A stretch of 64,000 bases of DNA from Tunturibacter empetritectus (GTDB taxonomy: Bacteria; Acidobacteriota; Terriglobia; Terriglobales; Acidobacteriaceae), in assembly GCF_040358985.1 (NCBI RefSeq), contig NZ_CP132932.1, positions 2,914,001-2,978,000 on the forward strand. The letters are read 5' to 3'. Positions 27,566 through 64,000 of this stretch are shown here, one piece after another (the first letter of the stretch is position 1; each line of letters begins with the position of its first letter). Below the pieces are notes generated by a model that was not told the DNA's origin, did not search any database, and saw only the letters and a program-made list of their open reading frames with translations. The position numbers and the translations under genes were made by a program.

Positions 27566-27601
27566 TAGTCCATCAGGCAGATAGCCTTCGCGTAAAAGAA
27601 A

Positions 27602-27761
27602 TGTCCTGCCGGACGGGCCCACTACGCGTGGCGCGGTCACTTCGTGACTTGCATACCGCTTCGCGAAGGAAGATGATTCCGACCAACGGGAGGACCACGC
27701 GAAGCCTTAAAAAGGCGTGTGAACGCCCGCTGCCCGCGCAGGGCGCCTGTCCGGCAGGACA
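27602..27761. repeat. 160-bp element with 13-bp perfect terminal inverted repeats
   Basis: It begins TGTCCTGCCGGAC (27602-27614) and ends GTCCGGCAGGACA (27749-27761), exact reverse complements. Inside are further palindromes: GTCAC-TTC-GTGAC, CTTCGCGAAG and GCCTT-AAA-AAGGC. A partial copy of its left end lies at 58952-59008. No open frame is convincing. It looks like a non-coding REP/MITE-type element; no target-site duplication was identified. Confidence 0.6.
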
Positions 27762-27768
27762 CTATCTT

Positions 27769-28734
27769 TTAAGCCCACCAAGCCTCAACCGGAGGCTCCT
27801 TCAGCAACACCCGCGAAAGCATCCCAATCGCCGAAGTCAGCCCCTCTTGCGTTGAAGCCAGAGCATCCTCATGCTCAATACTTATCACATAGTCATACCC
27901 CACCAGCCGCAGCGCAGAAGCAATCCGCTTCCACTCCAACTCCCCATGCCCCCACCCCACCGAACGAAACAACCACGACCTCTTCGCCATCTCACGATAG
28001 CTCTTCGTATCCAGCACGCCATTCACATCGCGCATCGCAGCGTTGATCGCCACATCCTTCGCATGAAAGTGAAAGATCGCCTCCCCCAGCGCAGCAATCG
28101 CCGCAGGAATATCGATCCCCTGCCACCACAGATGGCTCGGGTCTAAATTGATTCCAACCGAATCACCCACAGCCGCACGCAAACGCAGCACAGTCTCCGG
28201 GTTGTACACACAGAACCCCGGATGAGCCTCAAGCGCAATCTTCACCCCAGCGTCCTTGGCAACTTTAGCCGCACCCTTCCAGTAGGGAATCAACCGCTCC
28301 TCCCACTGCCATGCCAGCGCCTCCGAAAACTCCGGAGGCCACGCCGCCGTAACCCAGTTCGGCGTCACATCCTGCGCAGATCCACCCGGGCATCCAGAAA
28401 ATGTAACCACCACAGGCACATGAATCTGCTCCGCCAGCTTCACCGTCTTCCGCAGCAGCTCATCGTCGCGCCCAGCGATCTCCTTCTTCGGATGAACCGG
28501 ATTCCCATGGCAAGACAGCGCGCTGATCGAAAGCCCAGCATCCTCCAACTTCGACCGATACGCCCGCGCCGCCTCTTTACTCGCAAGCAGCGCATCAAGA
28601 TCAAGATGACTATTTCCAGGCCATCCCCCGGTCCCAATCTCCAACGCCTCAATCTGCGGATACTTCTTCAACTCCACCAGCAACGCATCCAGCGACAACC
28701 CATTGAATATCGGCGTAAACAACCCTAACCGCAT
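27769..28734 (-). CDS. Sugar phosphate isomerase/epimerase, TIM-barrel
   Basis: A 321-residue AP_endonuc_2-type barrel. Strand-end motifs give the metal site: EALEIGTGGW, SALSCHGNPVHP, VTFSGCPGG, IALEAHPGF, GINLDPSHLWWQG, FHFHAKDV and YVISIEHED. It has no signal peptide, so it is cytoplasmic. Downstream of a co-oriented sugar porter gene, it is likely to act on the imported sugar or inositol-like compound. The exact reaction cannot be told. Confidence 0.88.
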   Translation of the reverse strand: MRLGLFTPIFNGLSLDALLVELKKYPQIEALEIGTGGWPGNSHLDLDALLASKEAARAYRSKLEDAGLSISALSCHGNPVHPKKEIAGRDDELLRKTVKLAEQIHVPVVVTFSGCPGGSAQDVTPNWVTAAWPPEFSEALAWQWEERLIPYWKGAAKVAKDAGVKIALEAHPGFCVYNPETVLRLRAAVGDSVGINLDPSHLWWQGIDIPAAIAALGEAIFHFHAKDVAINAAMRDVNGVLDTKSYREMAKRSWLFRSVGWGHGELEWKRIASALRLVGYDYVISIEHEDALASTQEGLTSAIGMLSRVLLKEPPVEAWWA

Positions 28735-28765
28735 CGACTATCTCCCTTTCCTACTATATTGAGTC

Positions 28766-28800
28766 GTCATCCTGAACGTAGTGAAGGATCCCCGTATTTG
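28766..28800. repeat. Dispersed repeat, copy 1 (GTCATCCTGA...GAAGGATCCCCGTATTT)
   Basis: The core recurs in reverse orientation at 53042-53090 and 63687-63721, where it is inside or at the end of coding sequence. A more diverged relative (GCGTCATCTCAACCGAAG...GTAGTGGAGAGACTCCCGCATTG) fills 28889-28950. The 28735-29028 gap between the isomerase and sugar porter genes is made almost wholly of such repeats. Confidence 0.6.
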
Positions 28801-51913: not shown

Positions 51914-53086
51914 ATGCCGGTTCGACAGCTCCCAGCCAAGCCCGACCTCGACCACCTCAAGCATCAAGCCAAGGATCTGCTTCGTGGCCACGCTGAGCAT
52001 GCTCCGCTCGTCGCGCAGCAGATTCGAGAGTTTCATCCACGGTTTCTGCGTGCGAAAGATGCTGAGATTTTTCGCGCCCCGTTCAAGTTGAGCGATGCGC
52101 AGGTGACGATCGCTCGTGAGCATGGTTTCCAGAGTTGGGTTCGGTTGAAGTCGCATATTGAGAGACCAACGCTCACTGGCCAAATCAGCTTGCCGCATCA
52201 CGAACGAATTGAGGATGCGGCGTTTCGTCTTGCGGTGAAGCTGATTGACGCCGGCGATGTGGCGGGTTTGCGTTCCCATCTGAAGCAGCATCCCAGGCTG
52301 GTCCATCAGCATGTTGTCTTTGAGGGGGGAAACTACTTTCGGAATCCCACGCTGCTGGAGTTTGTGGCGGAGAATCCGGTTCGCCATGGCAGTCTGCCTG
52401 CCAGCATTGTCGAGGTAGCCAAGGTGATTCTCGATGCCGGTGCGGAGCGTTCCGCTATTGAGGAGACTCTCATGCTCGTCTGCACCGGCAGTGTCGCTCG
52501 GGAGTGTCGCGTCAAGCTTGATTTGATCGATCTGCTTTGCGATCGCGGTGCGAATCCTGAGAGTGCTCTGCGGGCGTCTGCCTTGCATGGAGAGGCTGAC
52601 GCGGTGAATGCATTGATAGCGCGCGGCGCACAGATCGATCTGCCGGTCGCGGCCGCGCTGGGCAGGGTCGATGACTTTCGCCGTCTGCTTGCAGCGTCCG
52701 ATGGGGAGGATCGTCATCTTGCACTGGCCCTGGCGTCGCAGTACGGTCAGGTCGAGATCGTTAAGCTGCTGCTGGATGCGGGGGAGGATCCGAACCGTTA
52801 CAACCCGGTTGGAGGGCACTCTCATACGACGCCGTTGCACCAGGCTGCTGGCGCGGGGAATGAACGGCTGGTGAAGCTTCTCGTCGAACGAGGTGCGAGG
52901 CTGGATAGGAAGGATGTGCTGTGGCGAGGGACACCGGCGGATTGGGCCAGGTACGGCGGCAAGACGGAGGTTGAGCGGTATCTTCGTTCGCTGCAGGATG
53001 GTGGCTCGGCAACGGCAGAAGGTGCAAGCAAAGCAACGACGAAATACGGGGATTCTTCCCTTTCGGCAAGCTCAGGGTCAGAATGA
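51914..53086 (+). CDS. Ankyrin-repeat protein with repeat-derived C-terminus
   Basis: The 390-residue protein starts MPVRQLPAKPDLDHLKHQAK, with AGAGGAAG 7 nt before ATG 51914. The N-terminal helical section is followed by degenerate ankyrin units from about residue 115 on, the clearest being HLALALASQYGQVEIVKLLLDAGEDPN and TTPLHQAAGAGNERLVKLLVERGARLD. It should serve in protein binding in the cytoplasm. The last 14 residues (KYGDSSLSASSGSE) and the stop codon are encoded by a dispersed repeat, so the original end may have been replaced. Confidence 0.85.
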   Translation: MPVRQLPAKPDLDHLKHQAKDLLRGHAEHAPLVAQQIREFHPRFLRAKDAEIFRAPFKLSDAQVTIAREHGFQSWVRLKSHIERPTLTGQISLPHHERIEDAAFRLAVKLIDAGDVAGLRSHLKQHPRLVHQHVVFEGGNYFRNPTLLEFVAENPVRHGSLPASIVEVAKVILDAGAERSAIEETLMLVCTGSVARECRVKLDLIDLLCDRGANPESALRASALHGEADAVNALIARGAQIDLPVAAALGRVDDFRRLLAASDGEDRHLALALASQYGQVEIVKLLLDAGEDPNRYNPVGGHSHTTPLHQAAGAGNERLVKLLVERGARLDRKDVLWRGTPADWARYGGKTEVERYLRSLQDGGSATAEGASKATTKYGDSSLSASSGSE

Positions 53087-53090: not shown

Positions 53091-53140
53091 TCTTTTTGTA
53101 TGGAGCCTTCCCAGGTGTGACGGTTTCTTGAGAGTTCGGT

Positions 53141-53220
53141 GATGAAGATCGGATTCGTGTACAGGGTGTCTCCCGGGATGGTGTGTTCGGTGCGGGAGTT
53201 GTGGCGGCTGGAGCACAGAG
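53141..53220 (+). pseudogene. Decayed copy of the 5' end of the FecR-domain gene
   Basis: These 80 bases align with 54710-54790 over their whole length, from GATGAAGATCGGATTCGTGTAC to GGCGGCTGGAGCACAGAG, with about ten substitutions and one deleted base. The corresponding peptide starts MKIGFVYRV and is then out of frame. It is a remnant of a duplication about 1.5 kb from the parent. Confidence 0.75.
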
Positions 53221-53222
53221 TT

Positions 53223-54295: not shown

Positions 54296-54710
54296 GTTCG
54301 TTCCTCAATATGGGACGGGATTGACAACTTTATCGATTGTCGAAACGAACGATAATGCAAGTAGGATGCGAACTTTAGTTATTCGAGGCCATCAGTCCTC
54401 ATAAATAGGCGTATAGGAAGTCCGCTGATACGGAACAAATATTCATGGAGGTACGTTGCGACCGCGGTCACTGTTCGTTAGGACAGTTTTCGACATAGGT
54501 TTAGTTCGTCCGCAAACGCCATATTCCTGATGATTTAGCCATGCGACGGGTTGGTTGGCGTGGACGCGTATTGTTGCGCGGATTTGATTTCAGGCGTCGA
54601 GGTGAAAAAGGCCTAGACTATTTGAGTTTTGGTGAAGCTATTGCAGTAGTCGCGGACGTATACTGCCCGCACCTGAAGTTGCAACTGTTTTTATTGTTTG
54701 GAGGCCGCTG
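54296..54710. other. Intergenic region upstream of the FecR gene
   Basis: About 415 bp, more AT-rich than its surroundings, between divergent genes. No gene or clear operator is seen. It should hold promoters for both neighbours. Confidence 0.35.
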
Positions 54711-56345
54711 ATGAAGATCGGATTCGTGTACCGAGTGTTTCTCGCGATGGCGTTTTCGGTGGCGGGAGTTGTGGCGGCTGGAGCACAGAGTGGAGCGGCC
54801 GGGGAGCAAAGTAACCCTCTGGATGTGGATTCTGCATCGGCTGCTCATGTGACGACCGCACACATGACGACGGCTGATGTGCCAAAGGCTCGTGTCCCGG
54901 TAGCTGGTACACCTACGTCTGATGTGGCAGCGGCGAGCGTGCCCGTAGACAATGGGGCGCGGCCGGGCGATTCGCACGTAAGGATTGTGCGGCTGAGTGA
55001 TGTGAAGGGAACACTCTCACTCGATCGTAAGACGGGCAACGGCTTTGAAGAGACGATGCCGAATATGCCGATTGTTCAAGGCCAGAGACTTCGGACCGCC
55101 GATGGATATGCTGAGGTGGAGTTTGAGGACAACAGTACGCTGCGTGTGGCGCCGAACTCGCTGGTGGAGTTTCCGCTGCTGGCGCTGCGCAGCTCGGGAG
55201 CCAAGGCCTCGACGATACAGGTGGTGCGGGGGATGGTGTATGTGAACCTGCAAAGCACGAAGGGGAATGAGTTCGTGCTGCGGGCGGGAGATCAGACGAT
55301 GACGGTTTCGCCGTCGACGCATGCGCGAATGACGGTGGCTGACGGGAAGACAGTTGTCTCGGTCTTCAACGGAAGCGTGGAGGCGAAGCACGGCGCAGAG
55401 ACGACGCTGGTGACGAAGAAGGAGTCACTGACGCTGGGTGGAGAGCAGGTGGCTGTTGTGAAGAAGATCGAGGAAGCGCCATCTGATGCGTGGGATAAGG
55501 AGGCGAACGACTATCATGCGCGCTACTCGCAGGCGAATGCGTTGGTGGCCGGGGGCTCTACCTATGGCTTGAGTGACCTGAACTACTACGGGAACTTTAT
55601 CAATGGCGGAGCGTTTGGATCTTTCTGGCAGCCGTATCTAATTGGCGCAGGATGGAATCCTTACTTGAATGGCGTGTGGGCGCTATACCCGGGCGCGGGC
55701 TACTCGTGGGTGTCTCCGTATCCGTGGGGATGGCTGCCGTATCACTCGGGCAACTGGTCGTTCTTCCCGGGATATGGGTGGGGATGGCAGCCGGGTGGCG
55801 CGTTTAATGGATTGAACAATGCTGCGAGTGGCGGCGTTGCGAGTGGCGGTGGCGTGGCAGGGGGGCTGGTTGGGACAGCGGTGCATTCGCCCTTGCGTGC
55901 GGCCTCGCCGCAGGCGCCGACCGCGGGTGCGGGTTCGCTGGTGCTTGCGAACAATACGCCAATGGTCTTCTCCAAGGAAGATAAGCCGGGGAACTTTGTG
56001 TTCCAGAAGAACTCGGCGGGGTTGGGCGTGCCGAGGGGATCGCTGGGAAGCCTGAACAAGATTTCGAGCCATGTGGAGCAGCACGGATCGGCAAGTATGC
56101 AGGTCTATGCTGCCGTGCCATCTGCGGGGGGCATGGCATCGAGTCATGGTGGGAACAGCGGGCCGGTTACATTGCGGGCGGGAGCGCCGATGCAGAGTGC
56201 GAATACATCGAATGCACCAGCATCGCGAGGGGAATCGTATGGGGGATCTTCGGCGTCATCGGTCGCTTCTCATAGCTTGGGTGCTCCTTCGGGGAGCGGC
56301 GGGTCCTCCGGAAGCGGCGGCCGCGGTGGATCTGGTCCGAAGTAG
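54711..56345 (+). CDS. Secreted FecR-domain protein with Tyr/Trp/Gly-rich C-terminus
   Basis: The 544-residue protein has a signal peptide ending VVAAGAQ and a FecR domain at about residues 85-200 (VKGTLSLDRKTGNGFEETMPNMPIVQGQRLRT by position; then LRVAPNSLVEFPLL). A middle section rich in Trp, Tyr and Gly follows (SPYPWGWLPYHSGNW), and the last 140 residues are low-complexity Gly/Ser/Ala. GGAGG is 6 nt before the ATG. No sigma factor or TonB receptor is adjacent, so it is unlikely to be a classical FecR signaller and may be a surface or wall-associated protein. Confidence 0.85.
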   Translation: MKIGFVYRVFLAMAFSVAGVVAAGAQSGAAGEQSNPLDVDSASAAHVTTAHMTTADVPKARVPVAGTPTSDVAAASVPVDNGARPGDSHVRIVRLSDVKGTLSLDRKTGNGFEETMPNMPIVQGQRLRTADGYAEVEFEDNSTLRVAPNSLVEFPLLALRSSGAKASTIQVVRGMVYVNLQSTKGNEFVLRAGDQTMTVSPSTHARMTVADGKTVVSVFNGSVEAKHGAETTLVTKKESLTLGGEQVAVVKKIEEAPSDAWDKEANDYHARYSQANALVAGGSTYGLSDLNYYGNFINGGAFGSFWQPYLIGAGWNPYLNGVWALYPGAGYSWVSPYPWGWLPYHSGNWSFFPGYGWGWQPGGAFNGLNNAASGGVASGGGVAGGLVGTAVHSPLRAASPQAPTAGAGSLVLANNTPMVFSKEDKPGNFVFQKNSAGLGVPRGSLGSLNKISSHVEQHGSASMQVYAAVPSAGGMASSHGGNSGPVTLRAGAPMQSANTSNAPASRGESYGGSSASSVASHSLGAPSGSGGSSGSGGRGGSGPK

Positions 56346-58951: not shown

Positions 58952-59008
58952 ATGTCCTGCCGGACGGGCTCGCTACGCGCGACGCGGTCACTTCGTGACT
59001 TGTATACC
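58952..59008. repeat. Partial copy of the 160-bp inverted-repeat element
   Basis: ATGTCCTGCCGGACGGGC...CGCGGTCACTTCGTGACTTG matches 27601-27656 with a few substitutions, then the similarity stops. Only the left end is present, including the GTCAC-TTC-GTGAC hairpin. Confidence 0.65.
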
Positions 59009-62438: not shown

Positions 62439-64000
62439 ATGCCTGAGAGACGAACGAGCGAAATCGGCGGGAAAACATTGAATATTGAGGATAGTTCTTC
62501 CGGTGCGGAGTTGACTCAGCCGCAGCGGTATAACCCGGCTGAGATCGAGCCGAAGTGGCAGGCCCGGTGGGATGCGGATGCGACGCTGTATGCGGCAGAG
62601 GCGCATGATTCGGGGAAGCCAAAGTACTACTGCCTGGAGATGCTGCCGTATCCGAGCGGCGCGCTGCATATTGGGCATGTGCGGAACTATGCGATCGGCG
62701 ATGCGCTGGCTCGGCATATGTGGATGCGTGGGTATAACGTGCTGCACCCGATGGGGTGGGATGCGTTCGGACTGCCGGCGGAGAATGCGGCGCTGAAGAA
62801 CGGCGTGCCGCCGCGGGAGTGGACGTTTGCGAATATTGCGGCGATGAAGAAGCAGTTTCAGCGGCTGGGGATGGGGTTCGACTGGACGACTGAGGTGACG
62901 ACCTGTCTGCCGGAGTACTACCGGTGGAATCAGTGGTTCTTCTTGAAGATGTTTGAGAAGGGGTTGGCCTATCGGAAGAAGAGCAAGGTGAACTGGTGTC
63001 CGGAGTGTTGCACGGTGCTGGCGAATGAGCAGGTGATCGGTGGGCGCTGCTGGCGGCATGAGGATACGGTTGTTGAGCTGCGGGATCTGACGCAGTGGTT
63101 TTTGCGGATTACGAAGTATGCGGATGAGTTGCTGGAGGGATTGGATAAGCTGGAGGGTTGGCCGGAGAAGGTCCGGACGATGCAGCGGAACTGGATTGGG
63201 CGGAGCGAGGGGGCTTTGATCGACTTTGCGGTCGATCAGGGTATAGGGGGTAGGGAAGAGGGAGTAGAAGGCAAGATCACGGTGTTTACGACGCGGGTGG
63301 ATACGATCTTTGGGGCGACGTCGGTGCAGCTTGCGCCGGAGCATGCGGTGTCGAAGGCGTTTGCGCTGGAGGATGACAAGCTGCGGGTGCAGATTGAGCA
63401 GCTACTGGCTGAGCAGCAGAAGGCGCGAGAGTCCGATGCGCTGGGTGCGATTGAGAAGCATGGCGTGAATACGGGGCGGTTTGCGGTGAATCCGTTCAAT
63501 GGCGAGCGGGTGCCGATCTGGGTGGCGAACTACATTCTGGCGGACTATGGGACGGGCGCAATTATGAGCGTGCCGGCGCATGATGAGCGGGACTTTGAGT
63601 TTGCGCGGAAGTATGGGTTAGAGGTGCGGCGGGTGATTGCTCCTGCTGATGCTTCTGTTGACGCGACGAAGGAGAAACAAGAACAAAATACGGGGATCCT
63701 TCGCTCCGCTCAGGATGACGGCGCTGAGGATGTGGTGGGGGAGCTTCCTTATCTCGCTGAGGACGAGGCGGTGCTGATCGACTCGGGGAAGTGGACTGGG
63801 CTGGGTTGTGTGGAGGCGCAGGAGAAGATGGCTGCGTTTGCGAAGGTGAAGGGATTTGGCACGCCTACGGTTACGTATCGGTTGAAGGACTGGGGGGTGA
63901 GCCGGCAGAGGTACTGGGGGACGCCGATTCCGATGGTGTACTGCGACAGGTGCTCGCCGGAGGAGCCGCTGCCGGTGGCTGAGAGCGAGCTGCCGATTTT
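62439..64000 (+). CDS. leuS: Leucyl-tRNA synthetase (3' truncated)
   Basis: The frame is open to the end of the window; 520 residues are visible, over half the enzyme. It charges tRNA-Leu. The class I HIGH motif is in GALHIGHVRNY; HPMGWDAFGLPAENAA, the zinc-finger CPEC, and the CP1 editing-domain blocks TTRVDTIFGAT and VPAHDERDFEFA follow, then DWGVSRQRYWGTPIP. Two in-frame insertions made from dispersed repeats lie inside the editing domain (about residues 267-278 and 417-428). ATG 62439 lacks a strong ribosome site. Confidence 0.95.
   Translation, partial: MPERRTSEIGGKTLNIEDSSSGAELTQPQRYNPAEIEPKWQARWDADATLYAAEAHDSGKPKYYCLEMLPYPSGALHIGHVRNYAIGDALARHMWMRGYNVLHPMGWDAFGLPAENAALKNGVPPREWTFANIAAMKKQFQRLGMGFDWTTEVTTCLPEYYRWNQWFFLKMFEKGLAYRKKSKVNWCPECCTVLANEQVIGGRCWRHEDTVVELRDLTQWFLRITKYADELLEGLDKLEGWPEKVRTMQRNWIGRSEGALIDFAVDQGIGGREEGVEGKITVFTTRVDTIFGATSVQLAPEHAVSKAFALEDDKLRVQIEQLLAEQQKARESDALGAIEKHGVNTGRFAVNPFNGERVPIWVANYILADYGTGAIMSVPAHDERDFEFARKYGLEVRRVIAPADASVDATKEKQEQNTGILRSAQDDGAEDVVGELPYLAEDEAVLIDSGKWTGLGCVEAQEKMAAFAKVKGFGTPTVTYRLKDWGVSRQRYWGTPIPMVYCDRCSPEEPLPVAESELPI
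63239..63270. repeat. Repeat-like insertion inside leuS (GGGTATAGGGGGTAGGGAAG...)
   Basis: A purine-rich, degenerate tandem segment that adds about a dozen residues (GIGGREEGVEGK) between two strands of the editing domain. It preserves the frame. Confidence 0.5.
63687..63721. repeat. Dispersed repeat inside leuS
   Basis: ATACGGGGATCCTTCGCTCCGCTCAGGATGACGG is the reverse of the intergenic repeat at 28766. In leuS it is translated as TGILRSAQDDG, near the end of the editing domain. Confidence 0.65.

Follow-up and report, generated by a model that had tools for sequence, protein, structure and literature searches.

The leuS gene of Tunturibacter empetritectus poses the question of whether two segments in the CP1 editing domain of its product are dispersed repeats captured in frame, as the initial annotation had proposed, and of how such DNA could come to lie within an essential gene. 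The window analysed here is the whole stretch of 64,000 nucleotides of contig NZ_CP132932.1 in which this gene begins.

Two variable segments in the CP1 domain of LeuRS

The leuS reading frame starts with the ATG at 62439 and encodes 892 amino acids, including the part beyond the window end, which was read on in the genome. The Pfam LeuRS editing domain corresponds to residues 250-423. The features of the gene and the other copies of its repeat in the window are the following.

62439..64000, continuing past the window, + strand: leuS, leucyl-tRNA synthetase (profile match to TIGR00396 at 1018 bits, and alignment to known LeuRS)
63237..63272, + strand: site-1 segment of the CP1 domain, residues 267-278 (QGIGGREEGVEG), absent in most relatives, with a heptamer repeat at 63239-63267
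63645..63742, + strand: site-2 variable segment of the CP1 domain, delimited by length comparison with relatives
63669..63686, left edge approximate, + strand: CAA-rich tract ahead of the hairpin repeat, read KEKQEQ; the same type of tract occurs in intergenic subtype A copies
63686..63720, + strand: dispersed repeat of subtype A (AAATACGGGG tail plus hairpin), read NTGILRSAQDD(G), identified by its genome-wide copies
63696..63719, - strand: hairpin core, GTC ATCCT GA GC GGA GC GA AGGAT, from copy alignment and covariation
28765..28799, - strand: second window copy of the hairpin repeat (core ATCCTTCACTACGTTCAGGATGAC, one compensated pair), from sequence comparison
53031..53061, + strand: third copy, partial or degenerate (CAACGACGAAATACGGGGATTCTTCCCT), from repeat comparison within the window

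The Thermus LeuRS has no counterpart for two stretches of the CP1 domain, residues about 266-273 (~8 residues) and about 402-438. Aligned with the Neisseria enzyme, residues about 402-438 fall again in a gap, which is partial, and residues about 266-273 are matched by a turn of similar length. The proposed pair of insertions relative to the usual CP1 domain is therefore confirmed at site 2, and at site 1 it holds only in comparison with Thermus and most relatives. Site 2 contains the exact 24-mer ATCCTTCGCTCCGCTCAGGATGAC at 63696-63719, translated ILRSAQDD, and the longer peptide TGILRSAQDDG occupies residues 418-428 (bases 63690-63722), as had been read before with coordinates correct to within 3 bases.

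The structure of LeuRS residues 1-520 was modelled with AlphaFold2 from 40 sequences (mean pLDDT 79.9), and both insert sites are predicted to be low-confidence loops next to a confident CP1 core, in which the blocks over residues 281-400 have pLDDT values mostly above 90, with one block at 81. In this model site 1 (block 271-280, pLDDT 65) is the turn joining strands 255-266 and 279-284, and site 2 (blocks 411-440, pLDDT 58, 49 and 60) is a partly helical loop bounded by strands at 400-402 and 444-446. The suggestion that such repeats could be a source of new protein loops is consistent with the model in the physical sense, i.e. a longer loop predicted with low confidence.

The site-1 insert is a (GGGARTA)n heptamer repeat (63239-63267). 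At up to 3 mismatches, the window genome contains the leuS copy and one more place, at 3 mismatches, and nothing else; with one good copy, in leuS, a dispersed status of the heptamer in this genome was rejected. Its only match in the genome G025 is also in leuS, and it is multicopy in some relatives, with 65 matches in G043 and 57 in G068 (partly overlapping), the reversed control giving 1 match each in G049 and G069. Since the leuS copy stands alone in the window genome and matches are many in G043 and G068, we read the kin of the heptamer as lost from the window genome or never present there. The number of matches per genome varies strongly among relatives, from 0 to 65 (G043, G034, G040 and G068 are examples). 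Around site 1 the window genome (G000) is 97% alike to G025 and 80% to G032, and its identity to G043 over the site-1 segment, 78%, is not above that of the surroundings. The possibility that site 1 arose by recombination with the G043 lineage was rejected as well, since 40-residue windows gave no sign of it.

The hairpin repeat and its relation to known REPs

The segment at 63687-63721 had been described as the reverse of an intergenic repeat, and the data bear this out. The copy at 28765-28799, on the opposite strand, is 91% complementary to the leuS copy over 35 nt, and the whole genome contains 60 copies at up to 3 mismatches (35 forward, 25 reverse), with 0 for the reversed-pattern control and 0.00 expected by chance per window for the 24-nt core at the same threshold. 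The description of the leuS inserts as dispersed repeats consequently applies to site 2 and not to site 1, with its single good copy. Subtype A, with the AAATRCGGGG-like tail seen in leuS, accounts for 33 of the 60 copies, subtype B, with a longer arm ending in TCGGG, for 26, and 1 copy belongs to neither. A CAA-rich tract precedes the 33 subtype A copies, with 2.18 CAA per 30 nt against a background of 0.20.

On the other strand the unit is YGTC-ATCCT-GA-GC-GNA-GC-GA-AGGAT-CCC, forming a stem of 5 bp and 2 bp, separated by a 2x2 internal mismatch, with a 3-nt loop (GNA). Among the 60 copies, one stem pair is CG in 46, TA in 13 and other in 1, and another is GC in 39, AT in 18 and other in 3. 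The two internal mismatches are conserved in 59 and 60 of the 60 copies, and in the triloop the G and the A are nearly invariant and the middle base is free. The 25 distinct sequences gave 10 cells with both sides changed, against 2.9 in shuffles, and none of the 500 shuffles reached 10. In two relatives, G041 and G003, the corresponding counts are TA 45/CG 15 for the first of these pairs and GC 47/AT 12/GT 1 for the second (60 of 109 copies examined), found with a search pattern that accepted either letter at each covarying position. The computed folding energy of the core was not better than that of shuffles on either strand (z about 0), and the structural claim rests for this reason on the covariation. 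The tag has C as first base in 41 copies, T in 18 and A in 1, followed by G in 59, T in 59 and C in 60; on the window strand the first stem pair is A-T in 54 and G-T in 6, and the second is T-A in all 60. The tail is CCC in 58 of 60 copies, and the next base is C in 31, G in 27 and T in 2. With its covarying stem, defined strand, tag and tail, the leuS-type repeat is a multicopy palindromic element that behaves like a REP.

The combination of a GNA triloop and tandem G.A mismatches corresponds to the very stable d(GCGNAGC) mini-hairpin and to sheared tandem G.A pairs. The repeat presumably has this make-up on one strand only, and the computed energies do not show such stability. No work linking this mini-hairpin to REPs was found among the titles and abstract openings of the papers listed.

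The closest known elements are the CGTC-tagged REPs, as described in parts of PMC3733652. Over the 60 copies, the repeat shares with them the unpaired tag at the stem end (CGTC/TGTC/CCTC; here CGTC or TGTC), the opening of the stem with complementary A and T in its first two pairs (A-T/T-A), about 9 stem positions and a short C-rich tail, and it is likewise multicopy, mostly intergenic (5 copies in genes) and without a dedicated carrier transposase as judged from the Y1_Tnp family, with some copies inside ORFs. It differs from their 8-9 bp stem and 4-5 nt loop by having a 3-nt loop and two internal mismatches, so that only the count of 9 stem positions agrees, and also in its tail, CCCC or CCCG against mostly CCA, and in the CAA-rich tract. 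Because the tag, the stem start and the lack of a carrier transposase fit, whereas the loop length and stem regularity do not, we classify the element from its sequence as CGTC-REP-like and not as a CGTC REP. Its YGTC tag also separates it from the GTAG REPs of RAYT systems. As in REPINs and RAYT/TnpA-REP systems, in the passages available of PMC6006769 and PMC3116915, it forms hairpin repeats and, in the genome G045, head-to-head pairs spaced 66-112 nt; unlike those systems, it has no GTAG tag and no copy around Y1_Tnp genes. No copy was found in the stretch of 3.3 kb around each of the two Y1_Tnp genes of the window genome (L212, L213), and a RAYT partner was accordingly rejected.

The repeat is widespread among relatives. 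A 26-nt pattern at up to 2 mismatches was found in 43 of 81 genomes of relatives, and a 24-nt pattern at up to 1 mismatch in 105 of 200 genomes of a class sample (45 of 82 genera), with 0 for the controls in both cases. In the class sample at this threshold it was absent from all sampled members of one family (f6) and also from some members of the genus (G011, G013, G023). The genome G045 alone contains 323 copies at up to 2 mismatches, including several of the head-to-head pairs (66-112 nt measured start to start, e.g. C3:80170-80262 and C7:126683-126777).

Two other repeats were observed in the window. One, of 57 nt (ATGTCCTGCCGGACGGGC...), is at 27601-27657 and 58952-59008, 91% identical, with an inverted partner at 27727-27778, and is not the leuS repeat. 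The other is a stretch of ~97 nt at 53125-53221 and 54694-54791, some 1570 nt apart and identical in the last 30 nt, which perhaps represents two related neighbouring genes.

Captures and empty sites among relatives

LeuRS was aligned for 70 ORFs from 81 genomes (30 loci and 40 fetched separately). The hairpin repeat is present at site 2 in 4 of the 70 (the window genome, G032 and, in a separate, distant clade, G008 and G038). Site 1 has a variant hairpin (GATCCTTCGACTNCGCTNCGCT... CAGGATGAC) in 4 ORFs (G034, G028 and G039, identified by scan, and G024, locus L073, which the scan missed and visual inspection recognised) and the heptamer in another set of 4 (the window genome, G025, G043 and G046). 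None of the three inserts occurs in 59 of the 70 ORFs, and only the ORF of the window carries two. The site-2 stretch is 75 nt shorter, and without repeat, in the nearby G047 and G002 (L037, L062), and 51 nt shorter, again without repeat, in G014 and G029 (L035, L036), both differences being multiples of 3. Because the loop varies in any case, as in G014 and G029 with their repeat-free loops of middle length, the borders of the leuS insert are blurred. An old protein loop, expected as the same insertion in relatives with unrelated DNA, was not seen, since close relatives lack the insert and the inserted DNA is itself the repeat; for site 2, these same observations support the proposed in-frame capture of a dispersed repeat. 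Among 80 further loci from genome contigs, the sole match was a candidate heptamer in L108, at 4 mismatches.

A leuS tree of 52 of the 70 rows, with the insert columns taken out, requires at minimum 3 changes for the site-2 hairpin, 4 for the site-1 hairpin and 3 for the heptamer. Two separate gains at site 2 are the economical reading, even on the assumption of a single gain for the neighbours G008 and G038. Two oddities of the sample were also observed: G017 (4% contamination) has two leuS genes on different contigs (L053, L076), a real duplicate or a mixed bin, and L135 (CALQCC020000036.1), from a MAG titled Bordetella parapertussis, encodes a LeuRS near Acidobacteria, with 56% identity to that of the window, perhaps from a mislabelled bin.

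Of the 60 repeat copies in the window genome, 36 are spanned by ORFs of 120 aa or more, and 5 were judged to be inside real genes.

leuS: frame reading ILRSAQDD, judged by codon-position GC, ORF place and family match
valS: VILSGAKNP, in frame
asnS: LILSAAKDP, in frame
FG-GAP protein: RHPERSEG
579-aa ORF without family match: VLRSAQND

These calls are our own reading of GC by codon position, ORF place and family matches, not annotation. ORFs whose GC content over the three codon positions lacked the coding pattern were excluded, as were those with the repeat in the first ~95 residues and no domain ahead of it; L197, L201, L226, L227, L419, L424, L425, L426 and L439 are among the ORFs left out. 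By the same reading, 1 of 70 copies examined in G045 was intragenic, and 5 of 60 in G041 and G003, with host genes for ribonucleotide reductase, AsnRS, PurD, the exonuclease VII large subunit and an FtsX-like permease. The exonuclease case (L429), which is counted, has the repeat ahead of the first domain and may be an N-terminal extension. Over the four genomes, 11 of 190 examined copies were judged to be in coding genes, and 4 of these 11 are in synthetases, or more fairly 3 of 10, because the leuS case was given at the start. The share of synthetases in coding DNA is ~1% by a rough estimate. No synthetase is found in the G045 case and three G003 cases. The consensus of the repeat is open in four of its six frames (ILRSAQDD, SFAPLRMT, VILSGAKD and HPERSEG), and the 11 captures use the VILS frame 6 times, PERSE 3 times, LRSAQ twice and SFAPLRM never.

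AsnRS and ValRS were scanned in the BLAST-best ORF of 50 loci each: for AsnRS, the 30 with the best scores and 20 selected mainly by length, out of 81 genomes, and for ValRS, the 30 best-scoring and 20 mostly long loci. The repeat proper is present in 4 of the 50 AsnRS loci (the window genome, G032, G041 and G048), and 2 more (G030, G034) contain a diverged variant; repeat-like peptides occur in the loop ahead of FPRLSY in 14 of the 50, and the loop is short in G014, G025, G029 and G047. Thirteen of 30 genomes placeable on the leuS tree have asnS peptides, which require at least 8 changes in this set enriched for long genes. In ValRS, the repeat was found in 2 of 50 loci (the window genome and G032), as an insert of some 30 residues missing at the same place in other ValRS. 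This comparison with relatives suggests that the same synthetase loops were struck by the repeat more than once. As a separate observation, the AsnRS loop that separates KLEAV from FPRLSY reaches ~80 residues in the loci L347-L364 and contains peptides resembling the repeat (VILSEGAAEVEG, PERSEAEG, ESKDPE), at times two per loop.

Origin and meaning of the captured repeats

Taking as established the repeat family and its copy number, the covariation of the stem, the relatives without repeat at the site, the in-frame reading and the copies in valS and asnS, we consider it highly probable that a selfish CGTC-REP-like repeat inserts widely and survives where an open frame reads through a flexible surface loop. 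The REP-type palindrome, nearest to the CGTC-tagged REPs and scattered in genomes of this acidobacterial genus, would insert at many places, the subtype found here doing so with its CAA-rich tract and AAATRCGGGG tail. Movement would probably proceed as a single-stranded hairpin, by means of an enzyme that takes single-stranded DNA as its substrate and might be a Y1/HUH transposase. A frame-keeping insertion into an essential enzyme, at a surface loop, would be tolerated, because four of the six frames are open, and so retained, and other insertions within genes would presumably be purged, purifying selection accounting for the in-frame loop inserts seen. The leuS of the window genome would represent one such event at a CP1 loop, probably neutral for LeuRS, with the peptide as a passenger.

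It is unlikely that each synthetase loop received one old insertion at the root of the genus, which was then lost repeatedly and diverged, such that apparent independent gains are survivals. Carriers and non-carriers are intermingled in the L045/L047 clade and in the site-1 clade, so that one gain with losses is possible there, and site 2 of G025 may be a degraded remnant of the repeat; against this, the repeat is missing from every other LeuRS row that falls between the window clade and the L045/L047 clade, the window copy is the exact consensus core, and the captured copies are of different subtypes (ATCC..GGAT in the window genome, GTTC..GAAT in G008 and the GATCCTTCGACT variant at site 1). 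The minimum of 8 changes in asnS over 30 genomes, a set enriched for long genes, points in the same direction. Horizontal transfer of the leuS segments from a repeat-rich relative, instead of insertion in this lineage, appears quite unlikely. The heptamer, with no other good copy in the window genome, no other match in G025 and many in G043, would fit with it, as would the 97% likeness of the window genome to G025 around site 1 against 80% to G032, but identity to G043 is no higher there (78%) than in the flanks, and for site 2 the window genome is itself full of the repeat.

Selection of the loop extension, e.g. for a docking or regulatory function in the synthetase, with the repeat as raw material only, is very unlikely in our judgement. 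The main argument for a selected peptide is the constant frame in LeuRS, where the hairpin captures at both sites share one (LRSAQDD-like) of the four open frames, and synthetases provide 4 of the 11 captures judged coding. The main argument against it is that different host genes use different frames, valS and asnS being read in another and the FG-GAP and FtsX-like proteins in a third; moreover, sister lineages lack the loop, and AlphaFold2 gives low confidence there. We give as little weight to a role of the intragenic repeat in mRNA or DNA, such as a hairpin tuning translation or mRNA stability, with translation as a by-product. Many REPs are thought to work as RNA elements, according to a passage of PMC3733652, and the stem is maintained through compensatory change; its folding energy, however, is not above that of shuffles, and its position along host genes is variable.

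The capture of a selfish repeat in a surface loop belongs to a kind already known. Palindromic elements of Rickettsia were reportedly studied by Ogata in 2000. The RPE-7 element is present in PheRS beta and IleRS of Rickettsia, and RPE-4/6/7 share an ATGAC motif, in the parts of PMC3767692 concerned; our repeat contains it too (GGATGAC), a comparison by motif alone. Both are palindromes inserted in frame into conserved genes, at positions exposed to solvent. In that account all aligned Rickettsia orthologs carry the insert, and hotspots versus one ancient insertion were left undecided, whereas this acidobacterial genus has repeat-free sites. Intragenic REPs were reported by Di Nocera et al. 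2013, some of them within tRNA synthetase genes of three species, others in DNA-repair genes, with recB of two species containing them at nearly the same position; the main text of that paper mentions Acidobacteria once, about transposases (passages of PMC3733652). ERIC/RU elements, intergenic repeats also found inside coding genes, with the published proposal that new peptides can arise from them, are of another size class (103-168 bp, enterobacterial) and are set apart by their description in parts of PMC2759123. The available text of RepRanger (PMC12306157) has a table line for Granulicella aggregans and lacks the word 'intragenic'. Judged from titles, abstracts and passages, PMC3733652 and PMC3767692 are the only relevant literature found on repeats that lie in synthetases or that genes contain in frame, and neither this element nor synthetase captures in Acidobacteria were found. 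What is new is the family, the empty sites within one genus and the repeated use of synthetase loops.

Together with the published PheRS, IleRS and other synthetases of Rickettsia and Proteobacteria, the Acidobacteriota captures lead us to propose, tentatively and as a doubtful extension, that synthetase loops may be preferred recurrent landing or survival sites of CGTC-like REPs across distant phyla and a standing source of lineage-specific loops of the translation machinery, the transposed form being possibly a single-stranded hairpin (GNA triloop and tandem G.A, on one strand). One caution is that VILSxAKDP, LRSAQDD and PERSE peptides of acidobacterial proteins can derive from repeats that are read through, and need not be conserved motifs. 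The genus offers carriers, repeat-free sites and different subtypes at the same LeuRS and AsnRS loops among close relatives, and with such variation the choice between hotspots and one old insertion, left open for Rickettsia in the relevant passages of PMC3767692, becomes testable.
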